In this document: piece after piece, positions 21,935-28,920 of the stretch
Layout: the number at the start of each line of letters is the position of its first letter
Numbering within the stretch: the stretch's first letter is position 1
Notes under the pieces: generated by a model
What the model saw: the letters and a program-made list of their open reading frames with translations, nothing else
Told to the model about the DNA's origin: nothing
The model's database searches: none
Source of the DNA: Actinomycetes bacterium
Lineage (GTDB): Bacteria > Actinomycetota > Acidimicrobiia > Acidimicrobiales > Ilumatobacteraceae
DNA: 64,000 nucleotides
NCBI GenBank assembly: GCA_027491335.1
Contig: JAIXWJ010000060.1
Location: 1 to 64,000 of the forward strand
Direction: 5' to 3'
Translations under genes and position numbers: made by a program

Positions 21935-22459
21935 ATGTCGATCTTCAGAAAAGCCATGGATTACCTCGGTTTGGGCGAGGATGACGCGTACGACGATTAC
22001 GACGATCAGGACATGCCCGATCGTTCCGGTGGAGTGGCGCGTCCCGATCCCCGACGTGGCGAGTTCGACGACGGTGGTTCGCGGCCGGTCGTGCGTCAGG
22101 TGACGCCTCGCGACACCGATCCCATTCCGCCGCGTCGCATGGGTGTCGATGACTCGTCCATTCAGCCTCGCCCGGTGTCCGGTCGTCCTTCGTCCTCGGT
22201 GCGCACCATCGGTGGCTCCGTGCAAGGTGAGCCGCACACGGTGAAGGCCATCCGCTTCAACGACATTCAGGAAGTCGCCAACCGCTATCGCGATGGTCAG
22301 CCCGTCATCCTCAACACCGAGGGCTGCGACGACGATGTCGCGCGTCGCATGATCGACTTCTCGAGCGGCTTGTGTTACGCCTTGCACGGCAAGATCGAAA
22401 AGGTCGCTCGTGGGGTGTACCTCTTGAAGCCGGCCCCTCGCCCGAACGTCGATTACTGA
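21935..22459 (+). CDS. sepF: Cell division protein SepF
   Basis: This is a 174-residue protein that tethers FtsZ to the membrane. The N-terminus MSIFRKAMDYLGL is an amphipathic membrane-targeting helix. A disordered Asp/Tyr/Arg-rich linker (about 15-85) follows, then the conserved SepF core (about 90-170) with RFNDIQEVANRYRDGQPVILN and the ARRMIDFSSGLCYALHGKIEKV dimer interface. SepF binds the FtsZ C-terminal peptide and replaces FtsA and ZipA in Actinobacteria. Confidence 0.95.
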   Translation: MSIFRKAMDYLGLGEDDAYDDYDDQDMPDRSGGVARPDPRRGEFDDGGSRPVVRQVTPRDTDPIPPRRMGVDDSSIQPRPVSGRPSSSVRTIGGSVQGEPHTVKAIRFNDIQEVANRYRDGQPVILNTEGCDDDVARRMIDFSSGLCYALHGKIEKVARGVYLLKPAPRPNVDY

Positions 22460-22462
22460 CCC

Positions 22463-22705
22463 GTGCGCGAACTGCTGTCGTCTCTCATCGGGTTGTACTC
22501 GATGGTCGTCTTCGTGCAGGTGATCCTGTCGTGGTTCCCCTCCAACGGTGGTGCGCTCTCCACGGTGCGCGAATGGACGGGGCGACTCACCGAACCGGTG
22601 TTGGGTCCCATTCGCCGAGCACTTCCGTCCATGGGCGGTCTCGATCTGTCGCCGTTGGTGCTGATATTGGCGTTGCAGGTGTTGCGCAGCCTGATCGTCG
22701 CCTGA
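22463..22705 (+). CDS. YggT family membrane protein
   Basis: This 80-residue protein has two hydrophobic helices (about residues 6-23 and 61-78) flanking the typical LSWFPSNGG...VREWTGRLTEPVLGPIRR segment of YggT. Its function is not firmly known; YggT proteins lie beside sepF in Actinobacteria and are linked genetically to division and osmotic tolerance. It starts three bases after the sepF stop. A wag31/divIVA gene, which often follows, is absent here. Confidence 0.9.
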   Translation: MRELLSSLIGLYSMVVFVQVILSWFPSNGGALSTVREWTGRLTEPVLGPIRRALPSMGGLDLSPLVLILALQVLRSLIVA

Positions 22706-22734
22706 ACGCGCCCCGCTAGCCTCGCCATTCGCCC

Positions 22735-25700
22735 ATGAACGCGCGCCCGTATCCCTCCATCGACGCCCAGCCGGACTTTCCGGCGATCGAGTCGGCCACC
22801 TTGGCTCGTTGGGATCGCGATCGCACCTTCGAGGCCTCTGTGCAGAGTCGGGCCGCCGGCGACGGTGGTGACAACGAGTTCGTGTTCTACGACGGCCCGC
22901 CATTCGCCAACGGGCTTCCGCACTACGGACACCTGTTGACCGGATTCGTGAAGGACGCCGTGCCGCGCTACCGAACGATGCGCGGCCAAAAGGTCGAGCG
23001 TCGTTTCGGTTGGGACTGTCACGGGCTGCCCGCCGAGGTGGAAGCCGAGAAGCAACTCGGTATCTCGGGACACCCCGAGGTCACCGCGTTCGGCATCGAG
23101 AAGTTCAACGATTACTGCCGCACGTCGGTGTTGCGCTACACGAGCGAGTGGGAGCGTTACGTCACGCGTCAGGCCCGTTGGGTCGATTTCGACAACGACT
23201 ACAAGACGCTCGATCTTCCGTACATGGAGAGCGTCATGTGGGCGTTCAAGACGCTTCACGACAAGGGTCTCATTTACGAGGGTTATCGAGTGCTGGCGTA
23301 TTGCTGGCGTTGCGAGACGCCGCTGAGCAACACCGAGACCCGCATGGACGACGTGTATCGCGATCGACAGGACCCGGCATTGACGGTGCGCTTCGCGTTG
23401 GAGTCGGGGGAGCATCTGCTGGCGTGGACCACCACACCCTGGACCCTGCCGTCGAACTTGGCTCTGGCCGTGAACCCCGACGTGGACTACGCGATCATGG
23501 AATTGAACGGCGAGAAGTCGATCCTCGCCGAGGCTCGCCTGGGGGCCTACGAACGCGAACTCGAAGGTGCCGTTCGGGTGGGCACCGTGCGGGGCGCCGA
23601 CCTGGTGGGTCGTTCGTATCGCCCGTTGTTCGATTATTTCGCCGACGCCGCGAACGCTTTCCGAGTGCTCGCGGGCGAGTTCGTCACCACCGAGGACGGC
23701 ACCGGAGTCGTGCACATGGCGCCCGGCTTCGGTGAGGACGACCAACTGGCGTGTCAGGCGGCCGGCATCGATGCGGTGTGTCCGATGGACAGCCACGGCT
23801 GCTACACCGCCGAGGTCGTCGATTGGGTCGGCCAACACGTGTTCGAAGCCAACCCCGCGGTCATCAAGCATTTGAAGGCCGCCGGAGTGGTGGTGCGACA
23901 CGACTCCTATTCGCACTCCTACCCGCACTGCTGGCGGTGCGCCGAGCCGTTGGTGTACCGCGCGATCTCGTCGTGGTTCGTCGAGGTCACGGCCATCAAG
24001 GACCGCATGATCGAGCTGAACAAGCAGATCACCTGGGTGCCCGAGCACCTGAAGGAAGGCTCGTTCGGAAAGTGGATCGCGAACGCCCGCGATTGGTCCA
24101 TCAGCCGTAATCGCTTCTGGGGTTCGCCCATTCCCGTGTGGAAGAGCGACGACCCCGCGTATCCGCGCATCGACGTGTACGGAAGCATCGCCGATCTGCA
24201 GCGTGATTTCGGAACCACCATCACCGATCTGCATCGTCCGGCGGTGGACGATCTGGTGCGTCCCAATCCCGACGATCCCTCCGGTACGTCGATGATGCGG
24301 CGCGTTCCCGAGGTGCTCGACTGCTGGTTCGAGAGCGGTTCGATGCCCTTCGCGCAGGTGCATTATCCGTTCGAGAACACCGAGTGGTTCGAGCAGCATT
24401 ACCCCGGCGACTTCATCGTGGAGTACATCGGCCAGACGCGCGGATGGTTCTACACGTTGCACGTCCTGGCCACCGCGCTCTTCGATCGACCGGCTTTTTC
24501 CACCTGCGTCAGTCACGGCATCGTGCTGGGTGACGACGGCCAGAAAATGTCGAAGAGTCTGCGCAACTACCCGGATCCCATGGTGGTGTTCGACACGTAC
24601 GGCGCCGATGCCATGCGTTGGTACTTGTTGTCGTCGGCCATTCTGCGTGGTGCCGACTTCTCGGTGACCGAAGCCGGCATTCGCGAGACCGTTCGTCAGG
24701 TGTTGTTGCCGCTGTGGAACTCGTGGTACTTCCTCGGCTTGTACGCCAACGCCGAGGGCGTGACCGGCAAGGTGCGCACCGACTCCTCCCACGTGCTCGA
24801 TCGTTACATTCTGGCCAAGACGTCCGATCTGGTTTCCGCGGTCACGCGCGACCTCGACGCGTACGACCTTTTCTCGGCCTGTGCGAACACCCGGGACTTC
24901 CTCGACGTTCTCACGAATTGGTACATCCGACGTTCGCGCGACCGGTTCTGGGCCGGTGACGCGGACGCGGTGGACACGTTGCACACCGTTCTGGAGACGC
25001 TGTGCCGGGTGGCGGCCCCGTTGCTGCCGTTGATCGCCGACACCGTGTACGAGGGTCTCACCGGCGGATCCAGTGTGCACCTCACGGACTGGCCGAGTGC
25101 CAACGATCTTCCCGCCGACGGCGATCTGGTGAAGGCCATGGACCGGGTGCGCGAGGTGTGCTCGTCGGCTCTGTCGGTGCGCAAGGCCCACTCGCGTCGA
25201 GTGCGCTTGCCGTTGTCGGAGTTGAAGGTCTCTCATCCCGATGCGGAGACCTTGCGACCTTTCGTCGACATCATCGCCGACGAGGTGAACGTGAAGCAGG
25301 TCGTGTTGTCGGCCGAACGAGAGTCGGGGGCCACCGCGGTTCTGCAAGTGATTCCGGGTGCTCTCGGTCCGCGCTTGGGCGGCCGCACCCAGGAGGTCAT
25401 CAAGGCCGTGAAGGTCGGGAACTGGTCGCACGAGAACGGGGTGGTCGTGGCCGGCGGCATAGAGCTGATGGAGGGCGAGTACTCCATCAAGATGGCGGCC
25501 GCCGAAGGTTCCGCCGGGGTGACCCTGGCCGATGGTTTGGGCATGGTCAGTCTCGACATCGAGATCACGCCGCAGTTGGCCGCCGAAGGAACCGCGCGCG
25601 ACGTGATTCGACTGGTCCAGCAGGCCCGACGCGATGCCGGGCTCGAGGTGAGCGATCGGATCACCTTGACTTTGGGGGTGCCGGAGTCGGTGCGTCGCCA

Positions 25701-25827
25701 AGTCGCCACGTTCGTCGACATGATCGCCGCCGAAACGCTGGCGACGGCCGTGGGTTGGGGCGACGGCACACCGAACGCCGAACTGGACGACGAACCGGTG
25801 TACATCGGTGTATCCGTGAGCCGATAG
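22735..25827 (+). CDS. ileS: Isoleucyl-tRNA synthetase, eukaryote-like type
   Basis: This is a 1030-residue class I synthetase. The HIGH motif is HYGH at residues 63-66, the KMSKS loop is at 604-608, and the editing domain contains the [17 protein letters not shown] segment (about 223-239). The [14 protein letters not shown] and [13 protein letters not shown] motifs are those of the type found in eukaryotes and Mycobacterium, which is commonly less sensitive to mupirocin. The C-terminal anticodon domain is complete. TAGCCT at 22717-22722 is a possible -10, giving a very short leader. No T-box fits in the 29-bp gap. Confidence 0.97.
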
Positions 25828-25852
25828 CCGCTCGGACGACTGCCAACGGGAC

Positions 25853-25858
25853 TATCCT
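25853..25858 (+). promoter_or_regulatory. -10 element upstream of the DksA-like gene
   Basis: TATCCT lies 29 bases before the ATG at 25888, giving a leader of about 22 nt that contains the Shine-Dalgarno AAGGA at 25876-25880. Confidence 0.4.
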
Positions 25859-25887
25859 CGCCGTAAACATCGACCAAGGACGTTCCC

Positions 25888-26859
25888 ATGGCCACCAAAT
25901 CGGTCAAGAAGCCCGCCGCGAAGAAGCCGGCACCCAAGAAGCCGGCGCCCAAGAAGATCGCATCGAAGCCGGTCGCCAAGAAGCCGGCAGCGAAGAAGCC
26001 CGCCCCGAAGAAGCCGGTCGCCAAGAAGCCGGCAGTGAAGAAGCCGGCAGTGAAGAAGCCGGCTGCGAAGAAGGCGGCTGCGAAGAAGCCCGCCGCGAAG
26101 AAGCCGGTCGCCAAGAAGCCGGCTGCGAAGAAGCCGGCACCCAAGAAGATCGCCGCGAAGAAGCCGGTCGCGAAGAAGCCGGTACCCAAGAAGATCGCAT
26201 CGAAGCCGGTTGCTACGAAGCCCGCCGCGAAGAAGTCGGCGCCTCAGAAGGTGGTGGCAGGGAAGGCGGTGGCCGCCAAGCCCGTCGCAGCCAAGCCCGT
26301 CGCCACAAAGCCCGTCGCCACAAAGCCAGTCGCCACAAAGGTCGTGGCATCGAAGCCCGTCGCCACAAAGGTCGTCGCAACAAAGCCCGCGCCGGCCCCC
26401 AAGAAGCCCGCCAAGCCGGTCTTCGTGAAGCCGCCGGTTCCCGGCAAGAAGCCCAAGACCAAGGACGGCATCATCTCCAACAAGGATTTCGATCTGGCGT
26501 TCCTTCGGGCTCAACGCACGCTTCTCGAAACCGAACGGGCCCGTTTGCTCGGTCAGGCCGAGCGCCTCGAGAACGAACGCGAACAACTCATCGAGGAAGC
26601 CGGAATGGGTGACGATCAGTTCGACGAAGACGGCGGCGAGGGCGACACCATGGCCGTCGAACGCGAACGCGATCGTGTGCTCTCCGAGCAGGCTCGTCAG
26701 ATCGTGGAAGACATCGATGCCGCTCTGAAGCGCATCGAAACCGGCGACTATGGGTACAGCGTCATCTCGACCCGACCGATCCCGCGTGAGCGCCTCGAGG
26801 TGATTCCGTGGGCCACCGAGTTGGTCGAGGAGAGAGTCGGCGGGATCGGCCGTCGATGA
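25888..26859 (+). CDS. DksA/TraR-like protein with H1-like KKPA-repeat tail and no zinc cysteines
   Basis: This is a 323-residue two-part protein. Residues 1-190 are an almost pure Lys/Ala/Pro/Val repeat (KKPAA, KKPVA, KPVAT units), like histone H1-type or HupB tails, and should bind nucleic acid. Residues 198-285 are a charged coiled coil like that of DksA/TraR regulators. Residues 286-318 align with the DksA zinc finger (GDYGYSVISTRPIPRERLEV then PWATELVEE), but all four cysteines are replaced (S291, S294, L312, E315). A DksA-like gene before lspA is common in Actinobacteria. It may act on RNA polymerase or the nucleoid; its function is inferred only. Confidence 0.85.
   Translation: MATKSVKKPAAKKPAPKKPAPKKIASKPVAKKPAAKKPAPKKPVAKKPAVKKPAVKKPAAKKAAAKKPAAKKPVAKKPAAKKPAPKKIAAKKPVAKKPVPKKIASKPVATKPAAKKSAPQKVVAGKAVAAKPVAAKPVATKPVATKPVATKVVASKPVATKVVATKPAPAPKKPAKPVFVKPPVPGKKPKTKDGIISNKDFDLAFLRAQRTLLETERARLLGQAERLENEREQLIEEAGMGDDQFDEDGGEGDTMAVERERDRVLSEQARQIVEDIDAALKRIETGDYGYSVISTRPIPRERLEVIPWATELVEERVGGIGRR
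25906..26430 (+). repeat. Degenerate in-frame repeat coding KKPAA/KPVAT pentads
   Basis: The DNA is built from variants of GCGAAGAAGCCG units, 12-15 bp, keeping frame throughout. The first two thirds use AAGAAGCC units; the last third shifts to GTCGCCACAAAGCCC units. Such arrays change length by slippage, so the tail length probably varies between strains. Confidence 0.85.
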
Positions 26860-27356
26860 GCGACGTGGCCGGTGCGTCACCGGCCCCGCGCGTCGGTGTG
26901 AGGGGTGCGTCGCTGATCATCGCGGCGGTGTGCGTGGCGATCGATCAGATCACCAAGCATTGGGCCCTCAATTCTCTCGATGACGGTCACGTCGTTCACG
27001 TCGTCTGGACCTTGCAGTTCAATCTGGCCTTCAACGGCGGAATGGCCTTCGGTCGCGGTCAGGGGTGGGGGCCGGTCATCGGCGTCGTGGCCACGGTTGT
27101 CGTGGTGGGCTTGTTGGTGTCGATGCGTCAGGGCAGTGGTCGCTTGTCGACCGTTGCCGTCGGTCTGATCGTGGGTGGAGCCGTGGGCAACATCGTCGAT
27201 CGGCTCCTGCGTGAGGATGGCTGGTTCCGAGGGCGCGTCGTGGACTACATCGACTTCCAATGGTTCCCGATCTTCAACGTGGCCGACATCTGCATCAACG
27301 TCGGTGGCGCGTTGCTGATTCTTGGTTACCTGCGTGCGGGAAGGGCGTCGTCGTGA
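26856..27356 (+). CDS. lspA: Lipoprotein signal peptidase LspA
   Basis: This 166-residue membrane aspartyl protease cleaves prolipoprotein signal peptides after lipidation. Four transmembrane helices are visible. Catalytic aspartates lie in GNIVDRLLR (about residue 115) and FNVADICIN (about 143), with the conserved FNGGMAFG and VAIDQITKHW motifs upstream. ATG 26856 overlaps the stop of the DksA-like gene (ATGA). The GTGA overlap with rluD matches the conserved lspA-rluD pairing. Confidence 0.95.
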   Translation: MSDVAGASPAPRVGVRGASLIIAAVCVAIDQITKHWALNSLDDGHVVHVVWTLQFNLAFNGGMAFGRGQGWGPVIGVVATVVVVGLLVSMRQGSGRLSTVAVGLIVGGAVGNIVDRLLREDGWFRGRVVDYIDFQWFPIFNVADICINVGGALLILGYLRAGRASS

Positions 27357-28276
27357 GTTCCATCGTCAACGAGGAGATCCCCGAGTCGCTCGATGGCGAG
27401 CGCCTCGACCGCATCGTCTCGCTCATCACCGAACTCAGTCGCGCCGATGCGTCGACGATCATCTCCGCCGGCGGAGTCACCGTCGACGGAGCCGCCGCTC
27501 CCAGTGGCAAGGTTCGGATGAAGGTGGGGCAATCGGTCACGGTCGATTTGGCGAAGTTGCCCGAAGAGCAGTTGCCCCAACCGGATCCGTCGATCGTGGT
27601 CGACGTCGTCCATGTCGACGACGACGTGATCGTCGTGAACAAGGCCGCCGGCGTGGTGGTGCACCCCGGGGCGGGCAACGCCGATGGAACACTCGTCAAC
27701 GGATTGTTGGCGTTGTTCCCCGAGATCGCCGAGGTGGGTGAGGCCCATCGTCCCGGCATCGTCCATCGACTCGACGTGGGCACCACCGGCCTGTTGATCG
27801 TGGCGCGAACGCAACGCGCCTACGAAGCATTCGTCGACATGCTGGCGGCCCGCGAGGTGACTCGTCGGTACACCGCTCTCGTGTGGGGTCGTCCGGCCGC
27901 GCCGGTGGGCACGATCGACGCCGCGATCGGGCGCGATCCTCGTGATCCGCTGCGCATGGCGGTGGTGGCCAGCGGCAAGCCCGCGCGCACGAACTACCGC
28001 GTCGAACGCACTTACTCCGATCCCGAGGTGTCCTTGGTGACCTGCGAACTGGAGACCGGGCGCACGCACCAGATCCGCGTGCACTTGCAGGCCACCGGCC
28101 ATCCCGTCGTGGGCGACCCGTCGTACGGCGGTGCACGAGCTCCGTTGGCATTTGGTCGTCCGTTCCTGCACGCGGGTGGTCTGGAGTTCGAGCATCCCTT
28201 CACCGGCGAGCAGATGGCGTTCCGAGCGCCCTTGCCCGCGGACCTCGATGCCGTGCTGTCGCGACTGCATCCGTAG
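27353..28276 (+). CDS. rluD: RluD-type 23S rRNA pseudouridine synthase
   Basis: This is a 307-residue protein with an N-terminal S4 RNA-binding domain (about residues 14-75) and a RluA-family catalytic domain. The motif HRLDVGTTGLLIVA (about 139-152) holds the catalytic aspartate, and ETGRTHQIRVHLQATGHPVVGDPSYG completes the active site. RluD modifies helix 69 of 23S rRNA; paralogues RluC/RluA have similar motifs, so the exact uridines are inferred from gene context next to lspA. Confidence 0.9.
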   Translation: MSSIVNEEIPESLDGERLDRIVSLITELSRADASTIISAGGVTVDGAAAPSGKVRMKVGQSVTVDLAKLPEEQLPQPDPSIVVDVVHVDDDVIVVNKAAGVVVHPGAGNADGTLVNGLLALFPEIAEVGEAHRPGIVHRLDVGTTGLLIVARTQRAYEAFVDMLAAREVTRRYTALVWGRPAAPVGTIDAAIGRDPRDPLRMAVVASGKPARTNYRVERTYSDPEVSLVTCELETGRTHQIRVHLQATGHPVVGDPSYGGARAPLAFGRPFLHAGGLEFEHPFTGEQMAFRAPLPADLDAVLSRLHP

Positions 28277-28292
28277 CGCGGCGAAACCCTGC

Positions 28293-28298
28293 TAGGGT
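28293..28298 (+). promoter_or_regulatory. Possible -10 element of the pyr operon
   Basis: TAGGGT lies 52 bases before the pyrR ATG and would start a leader of about 40 nt that contains the PyrR loop and ribosome binding site. It also forms the 3' arm of a short hairpin (ACCCT-GCT-AGGGT, 28286-28298). No clear -35 is seen. Confidence 0.35.
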
Positions 28299-28314
28299 CC
28301 GATTGACCGTCAAA

Positions 28315-28332
28315 CGGGTCCCGTGAGGCCCG
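28315..28332 (+). promoter_or_regulatory. PyrR-binding RNA loop before pyrR
   Basis: CGGGTCCCGTGAGGCCCG folds as a stem CGGGUC/GGCCCG, including one U-G pair, with loop CCGUGA. It matches the Bacillus PyrR site UCCNGNGAGGY exactly in the core (UCCCGUGAGGC). It ends three bases before the Shine-Dalgarno CGGAGG (28335-28340), so UMP-bound PyrR could block translation of pyrR, as described in Mycobacterium smegmatis. No terminator-antiterminator pair is visible. Confidence 0.75.
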
Positions 28333-28344
28333 AACGGAGGAAAC

Positions 28345-28920
28345 ATGAGTTCGGAACAATCCAGTTCGCGCGCGTCCGCGTCCGCCGTTTCCTCCGAAGG
28401 TTCCGTCGCCGTTCTCGCCGAAGCCGACGTGTCGCGGGCCGTCACCCGAATCGCGCACGAGATCATCGAACGCAATCGCGGTCTCGACGGCGTGGTGATC
28501 GTCGGTCTCCAACGAGGCGGCGTCTGGATCGCCGAGCACCTCGGGGCGGCCATCGCGCGCATCGACGAGTCGAGTTCCGTTCCGGTCGGACGACTGGACG
28601 TCGCGTTGTTTCGCGACGACATCGCGTTGCGTCCGGTGACACCGGTGTCGATCACCGAGATCCCGGTCGACCTGGCCGGATCCACCGTCGTGTTGGTGGA
28701 CGACGTTCTCTTCACCGGCCGCACGGTGCGCGCCGCCCTGGACGCGTTGAATCAATACGGTCGGCCGGCCGCGGTGCAATTGGCGGTGATGGTGGATCGA
28801 GGCCATCGCGAACTTCCCATCCGACCGGACTACGTCGGCAAGAACCTGCCCACGGGACGAGACGAGGACGTGATCGTTTCGGAATCCGGCGTCACCATCG
28901 TGCGCAAGGTCGCGTCATGA
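28345..28920 (+). CDS. pyrR: Bifunctional pyr operon regulator / uracil phosphoribosyltransferase PyrR
   Basis: This is a 191-residue type I phosphoribosyltransferase. The PRPP loop [18 protein letters not shown] is at about residues 116-133, and the basic RNA-binding face includes [11 protein letters not shown]-like and RRDD-like segments ([15 protein letters not shown]). The protein binds a hairpin in pyr mRNA when UMP is high and has weak uracil phosphoribosyltransferase activity. A Ser/Ala-rich N-terminal extension of about 25 residues precedes the core. The predicted RNA target lies just upstream. ATGA overlap with pyrB. Confidence 0.96.

Follow-up and report, generated by a model that had tools for sequence, protein, structure and literature searches.

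What becomes of a DksA-type protein that has lost its zinc site? The question is raised by a gene in a stretch of 64,000 nucleotides, here called the window, from a member of the Ilumatobacteraceae (class Acidimicrobiia; GenBank assembly GCA_027491335.1, contig JAIXWJ010000060.1, positions 1 to 64,000). The gene lies directly before lspA and encodes a tail rich in lysine, alanine and proline, followed by a C-terminal domain of the DksA type with no cysteine at the four zinc-ligand positions. An original prediction, made from the letters of the DNA, described it as a DksA/TraR-like protein that had lost its zinc cysteines and gained a tail resembling histone H1. What it observed is confirmed, and its interpretation is borne out in part. 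The reading preferred here, to which we give a probability of about 0.6, is that the protein is a zinc-independent RNA polymerase secondary-channel factor of the DksA lineage, held on polyanions by its tail. A tail joined to a DksA domain is already known from Streptomyces DdbA and is not new here. The surprise is that the zinc site has been lost for good, probably step by step, in a family where small genomes seem to be without another full-length DksA.

Loss of the Zinc Site

Alignment with four-cysteine homologues places serine, serine, leucine and glutamate at the four zinc-ligand positions of the window protein, just as the original prediction had read them. The Pfam model of the four-cysteine finger (PF01258) matches all five four-cysteine homologues that were scanned, with 45-53 bits against a cut-off of 24.9, and gives no match to the window protein even at an expectation value (E) of 10. 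The replacements do not look random in an alignment of 61 family rows. The first position is serine in all 61, the second serine in 59 and threonine in 2, the third leucine in 53, serine in 7 and methionine in 1, and the fourth glutamate in all 61.

A scan of named genomes found at least 470 relatives, of which the best 80 were kept; the ranking was by similarity to a query without cysteines, so that results on them speak for near relatives only. By record name they are 18 Ilumatobacter or Ilumatobacteraceae, 21 other Acidimicrobi- names, 33 unplaced actinobacteria and 8 others. All of these best 80 of at least 470 lack cysteine at the four positions and have lspA downstream; in 65 a co-directional ileS precedes the gene, and in the other 15 ileS is out of reach. 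Six of these loci read SSLE or SSME at the four positions, and a cysteine elsewhere in the domain occurs in 4 of the 80. A domain identical to that of the window is found at locus L198, in a record titled Ilumatobacteraceae. Comparison of orthologues, the check proposed at the outset, thus gives a loss that is lineage-wide, and a lone mutation or sequencing error is rejected by the cysteine-free residues at the same locus in all 80 and by a ratio of nonsynonymous to synonymous substitution (dN/dS) well below 1. By the method of Nei and Gojobori (NG86), seven of eight pairs give a ratio of 0.024-0.261 for the domain; dS of the eighth pair could not be estimated. Purifying selection maintains the domain even though none of the former ligand positions holds a cysteine.

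Over the 61 rows the mean column identity of the domain is 76%, with 19 invariant columns. At E 0.001 it is present in 58 of 61 relatives' genomes and in 183 of 198 genomes of the class, and at E 1e-8 in 148 of 296 genomes of the phylum; the counts for class and phylum include paralogues. Among 50,697 phage records, searched for a possible phage origin, nothing matched at E 0.001. Some records that hold the locus are titled Bifidobacterium breve, Ferrithrix thermotolerans or Acidimicrobium ferrooxidans (L212, L237, L230, L232, L234, L245, L250); these titles look like those of mislabelled metagenome bins.

Intermediate Stages

Homologues at the same locus carry different numbers of cysteines. 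After 18 duplicate and two truncated rows were dropped, 153 domain sequences were aligned, 129 of them with lspA downstream on the same strand. Among these 129 the four positions hold four cysteines in 47, three in 22, one in 22 and none in 38. A tree was built from 119 rows, with the four ligand columns removed and 11 near-identical rows of the same genus excluded. Its 28 cysteine-free rows form a single clade (support 100 in the Shimodaira-Hasegawa-like approximate likelihood ratio test, SH-aLRT), nested in a group of 49 rows together with 19 one-cysteine and two long-branch four-cysteine rows (support 92). Cysteine loss is recurrent, because the tree requires at least ten changes between four and fewer cysteines; the starred branches force four of these. 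Stars mark just 25 of the 116 inner branches, so that the sequence of changes is not settled with confidence; the probable route to total loss passes through a one-cysteine form. By this comparison the sampled family lacks the zinc site throughout, and intermediate stages survive in related groups. Four, three, one and zero cysteines at one locus make a natural series for probing what the DksA zinc site is for.

Where ileS is in reach, its orientation follows a similar division. All 24 cysteine-free rows have it on the same strand, against 1 of 13 one-cysteine rows, 4 of 14 three-cysteine rows and 5 of 35 four-cysteine rows; in most others it is divergent, and in 43 of the 129 rows it is out of reach. 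Absence of cysteine and co-orientation with ileS may both be just marks of one family.

Two paralogues of other actinobacteria, L164 and L172, lie away from lspA and have serine, serine, threonine and glutamate at the four positions. Their lack of cysteine suggests further independent losses.

Fold of the Domain

The relationship of the domain to DksA goes beyond chance. Its best NCBIfam match is TIGR02890 (yteA), at 2.8e-15 over model positions 7-113 of 159; TIGR02420 (dksA) matches at 3.8e-8 with 33.7 bits, under its curated cut-off of 115.5. The domain is acidic, with an isoelectric point of 4.5 and a net charge of -12.

An AlphaFold model built from 61 rows has a helical hairpin (residues 13-49 and 61-95, domain numbering) and short helices at 110-115 and 123-127. 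In the Foldseek search DksA proteins fill the top eight rows, led by 4ijj (DksA2), 1tjl and 5vsw; of 94 rows, three reach E 0.001 or better, and all three are DksA. VIA-align gives Z 12.9 against E. coli DksA (116 residues, 2.1 Å) and Z 12.3 against P. aeruginosa DksA2. Its six best rows belong to the DksA family; the next has Z 8.6, and rows at that value and less were taken as common helical arrangements. The predicted fold, an antiparallel helical hairpin with a globular former finger, is of the DksA type, and the lack of a structural match that would have spoken against the original prediction did not occur.

Some features of the model weigh against this assignment. Confidence is moderate, with a mean predicted local distance difference test score (pLDDT) of 75.8 (53-76 over five models) and a predicted template modelling score (pTM) of 0.62, and it is weakest at the hairpin tip and the C-terminus. 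VIA-align itself cautions that Z under about 13 in mostly helical models possibly reflects a common arrangement. It is on the Foldseek and sequence matches that the DksA assignment rests.

The suggestion that such a fold could be held without zinc finds support in P. aeruginosa DksA2, which the predicted model resembles. DksA2 does not coordinate zinc, according to an excerpt of PMC9213440, and the fold is therefore in principle able to dispense with the metal.

Hairpin Tip and ppGpp Site 2

In E. coli DksA the hairpin tip carries the functional residues D71, D74 and A76. In a profile alignment with that protein, the window protein has aspartate at both acidic positions and methionine at that of A76. 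Over the 61 family rows, the D71 position is glutamate in 56 and aspartate in 5, and the D74 position, one of the invariant columns, is aspartate in 61; both are thus acidic in every row. The A76 position is methionine in 57 and leucine in 4.

The second binding site of guanosine tetraphosphate (ppGpp) has fared differently. Its residues in E. coli DksA are R91, L95, K98, R129 and K139, and a single K98A or R129A change abolishes support for site-2 binding, as stated in part of PMC7676912. In the window protein these five are replaced by Q, I, D, I and R. No family row (0/61) has lysine or arginine at the K98 position. Site 2 was absent within the order before zinc was lost, because cysteine-bearing rows of the same order are also without K98 and R129: eleven rows with four or one cysteines have aspartate, glutamate or glutamine at K98 and isoleucine, leucine or methionine at R129. 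A RelA/SpoT gene was found in the window's genome, so ppGpp may act elsewhere. Because residues needed in E. coli are absent, a ppGpp partnership at site 2 is not to be assumed in Acidimicrobiia-type genomes.

Several observations count against a conserved tip and a uniformly missing site 2. Methionine occupies the A76 position. The D74 column is glycine or alanine in 14 of 37 rows of a wider alignment, including four-cysteine rows of the same order (L044, L048, L052, L055), which shows that the wider group does not keep the tip strictly. Arginine stands at the R129 position in 1 of the 61 family rows, and, among distant rows, five have lysine at K98 (L121, L123, L125, L136, L151) and one has arginine at R129 (L169).

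The Lysine-Rich Tail

The tail (residues 1-190) contains 61 lysines, 47 alanines and 38 prolines, with no arginine, aspartate or glutamate, and has an isoelectric point of 11.8. Lysine pairs are spaced mostly five residues apart over most of the first 100 residues (7, 12, 17, 22, 31 ... 101). There are six KPAA, ten KPVA and five KPVAT repeats, and composition and counts bear out the H1-like description given to it earlier. The tail also matches the Pfam HC2 family (PF07382) with 94.3 bits against a cut-off of 40; this is a low-complexity match, and so it is evidence of composition and not of descent.

Among 65 tails delimited by ileS, 64 have a positive net charge and the median length is 207; tail starts were picked by rule, so that these lengths are approximate. 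Variation among the tails counts against the reading preferred here. Its length is highly variable, some tails are rich in both lysine and glutamate (e.g., L240, L271), and the single tail that is not positive (L240, 8 residues) probably reflects a wrong choice of start.

Lysine- and alanine-rich tails are also present in homologues with four, three and one cysteine. In a Pfam scan of selected homologues, HC2 matches exceed the 40-bit cut-off in L118 (three cysteines) and L036 (one cysteine) and reach 27-37 bits, under the cut-off, in four-cysteine L040, L099, L175 and L180; no HC2 match was found for four-cysteine L048. The tail predates the loss of zinc, since homologues that still bear cysteines carry tails. 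Of the proposal that the protein had lost its cysteines and gained a tail, the loss stands; a gain of the tail as a single event with that loss is ruled out by the coexistence of tails and cysteines.

Two long antisense open reading frames cross the repeats, at 25852-26880 and 25233-26189 of the reverse strand. They were set aside as genes, since codon repetition most likely gives rise to them as a side effect.

Other DksA-Type Proteins in the Family

PF01258 at E 0.001 matches nothing in the genome to which the window belongs, nor in 24 further family genomes, several of them incomplete. This lack of a four-cysteine copy is not family-wide, because two larger genomes (G030, G031) carry four-cysteine paralogues (L067, L061). 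A profile of the group gave one further significant match in the window's genome (E 6.3e-5), to a cysteine-free frame of 65 residues; another match was at chance level. The lspA-linked protein is apparently the only full-length DksA-type factor in the small family genomes sampled.

The 65-residue TraR-like frame lies outside the window (G000:C46:6009-6203; loci L277, L283) and has no Pfam match. Its relatives occur in 30 of 37 family genomes, and none of the 20 sequences inspected from the 30 loci has a cysteine at the corresponding positions. By its sequence it appears to be a second zinc-less member of the superfamily.

Proposed Role and Alternatives

As a secondary-channel factor, the protein would dock its domain in the secondary channel of RNA polymerase and modulate initiation or pausing. 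It would do so without zinc and without an E. coli-style ppGpp site 2. The four-cysteine motif of DksA has been reported as a thiol switch, in a title cited in PMC9213440; the window protein has no such motif, and a thiol-switch input would therefore be impossible for it. The tail, with lysine as its only basic residue, would bind polyanions by charge, chromosomal DNA being the likeliest by analogy with DdbA and with other KPAA tails. Anchoring on DNA would raise the concentration of the factor where polymerase works. The tethering of an RNA polymerase regulator to the nucleoid, as first suggested, may thus hold by the same analogy. Polyphosphate may be a serious alternative partner of the tail, and RNA may be another.

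In a rather unlikely extension of the secondary-channel reading, all the known DksA inputs (zinc, thiol redox and ppGpp site 2) would have been cut off and control would have moved to the polyanion-binding tail. The state of the chromosome, or polyphosphate, would then set the amount of factor that reaches RNA polymerase. The series of four, three, one and zero cysteines would record this rewiring, fixed together with the change of orientation relative to ileS.

A doubtful alternative, and the one that survives best, is that the protein belongs to the nucleoid only. The tail would compact DNA and the DksA-type domain would be a leftover that serves folding or contacts with partners, not RNA polymerase. 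The tail is the most extreme feature of the protein, and DdbA (SCO2075) is counted among the nucleoid-associated proteins; its loss by deletion has an effect on chromosome compaction, and it is linked to ppGpp (PMC11942623, in an excerpt). It is the domain, however, that is the conserved part, by the column identity given above, whereas the length of the tail varies widely.

It is unlikely that the tail is above all a binder of polyphosphate. The factor would then be placed on polyphosphate, or freed from DNA when this accumulates, and a starvation signal would enter via the tail and not via site 2. AlgP, a protein that has KPAA and KPVA repeats, is located at polyphosphate granules, and its tail influences how the granules are spaced (PMC9239181, in part). 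According to a portion of PMC12077175, polyphosphate was bound by two proteins with 9 lysines in a region of 20 residues but not by two others, with 5 and 7. The window tail reaches 9 lysines in 20 residues, and a polyphosphate kinase is encoded in the same genome. Both binders, however, also had four consecutive lysines, and the longest run in the window tail is two.

That the cysteines were lost owing to zinc-poor water is distinctly unlikely. Lakes are named in several record titles, and P. aeruginosa DksA2 is expressed in zinc starvation, as an excerpt of PMC9213440 states. As a general cause, however, zinc economy is weakened because ribosomal proteins L36 and L31, the two proteins checked, keep cysteine-bearing forms in the window's genome, where L33 was located as well; total loss also has a single origin on the tree. 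A decaying gene or an assembly error has a negligible chance: low-complexity repeats are prone to misassembly and the motif does not fit the Pfam model, but residues and place are the same in all of the best 80 relatives and dN/dS is well below 1.

Comparison with Known Systems

The closest parallel to a tailed secondary-channel factor is Streptomyces DdbA, which was compared by description. It has an H1-like N-terminal domain and a DksA-like C-terminus, according to part of PMC9043899. The window protein likewise joins a lysine-rich N-terminal tail to a C-terminal DksA-like domain. DNA binding and condensation by DdbA were reportedly described by Aldridge and others in 2013. Four genomes of 7-9 Mb, all of one genus, have a homologue upstream of lspA with a lysine- and alanine-rich tail and a cysteine finger; partly from this architecture, these four are probably the Streptomyces DdbA counterparts. 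Unlike the window protein they keep the finger (CxxC...CxxC in three, CxxC...CxxD in one), and the three that were scanned match PF01258. Their alanine- and lysine-rich tails include acidic residues, in contrast to the window tail. The tail-plus-DksA layout of Streptomyces thus recurs beside lspA in Acidimicrobiia-type genomes.

Other relatives share one feature or another. P. aeruginosa DksA2 (4ijj), the top Foldseek match, is a zinc-free DksA fold, but its chain of 136 residues leaves no space for a tail of this kind. Chlamydia trachomatis Dks (6ptg) is the top sequence-profile match in the PDB, and its finger region has one cysteine followed by non-cysteines; it differs in being a 132-residue chain without a lysine tail. 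The B. subtilis YteA/YlyA group is represented by TIGR02890, whose model is described as having only one of the four cysteines conserved. The match of the domain to this model reaches 56.8 bits against a cut-off of 134.4, and the C-terminal part of the model is absent from the window protein. Pseudomonas AlgP and PhaF have lysine, proline and alanine repeats, with KPAA and KPVA, and an H1-like composition (PMC9239181, the same part), but their tail is C-terminal and follows a different N-terminal domain, which is helical. Searches of one literature library found no paper combining DksA with Acidimicrobiia, and none on a DksA-like protein, zinc finger and Streptomyces together.

The Gene and its Neighbours

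The features of the gene and its two immediate neighbours are collected in Table 1.

Table 1. Position of the DksA-type gene, its parts and adjacent genes in the window
Feature	Position	Strand	Basis or remark
Whole gene: N-terminal Lys/Ala/Pro tail and cysteine-less DksA-type domain	25888..26859	+	Open reading frame of 323 residues, ATG start
H1/HC2-like tail, residues 1-190	25888..26457	+	Composition; PF07382 match
DksA-type domain, residues 191-323: helical hairpin and former zinc-finger region	26458..26856	+	AlphaFold, Foldseek, VIA-align
Hairpin tip	26629..26646	+	Asp codon 26629-26631 at the position of E. coli DksA D71 and Asp codon 26644-26646 at that of D74; Met at that of A76
Zinc ligand 1 position, Ser	26758..26760	+	Alignment with four-cysteine homologues
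Zinc ligand 2 position, Ser	26767..26769	+	Alignment with four-cysteine homologues
Zinc ligand 3 position, Leu	26821..26823	+	Alignment with four-cysteine homologues
Zinc ligand 4 position, Glu	26830..26832	+	Alignment with four-cysteine homologues
ileS, co-directional 5' neighbour, with a gap of 60 bases to the start codon	22735..25827	+	Pfam PF00133 (433 bits), DUF5915, Anticodon_1
lspA, ATG overlapping the stop of the gene (ATGA)	26856..27356	+	Pfam PF01252 (111.9 bits)

Pfam matches give the gene order from 21935 to 28920 as sepF, ileS, the DksA-type gene, lspA, a pseudouridine synthase gene and a phosphoribosyltransferase gene (pyrR-like). The order in the window resembles the B. subtilis arrangement, ileS-ylyA-lspA-ylyB-pyrR, in which ylyA has ileS and lspA as its neighbours; its product YlyA is a protein that binds RNA polymerase.
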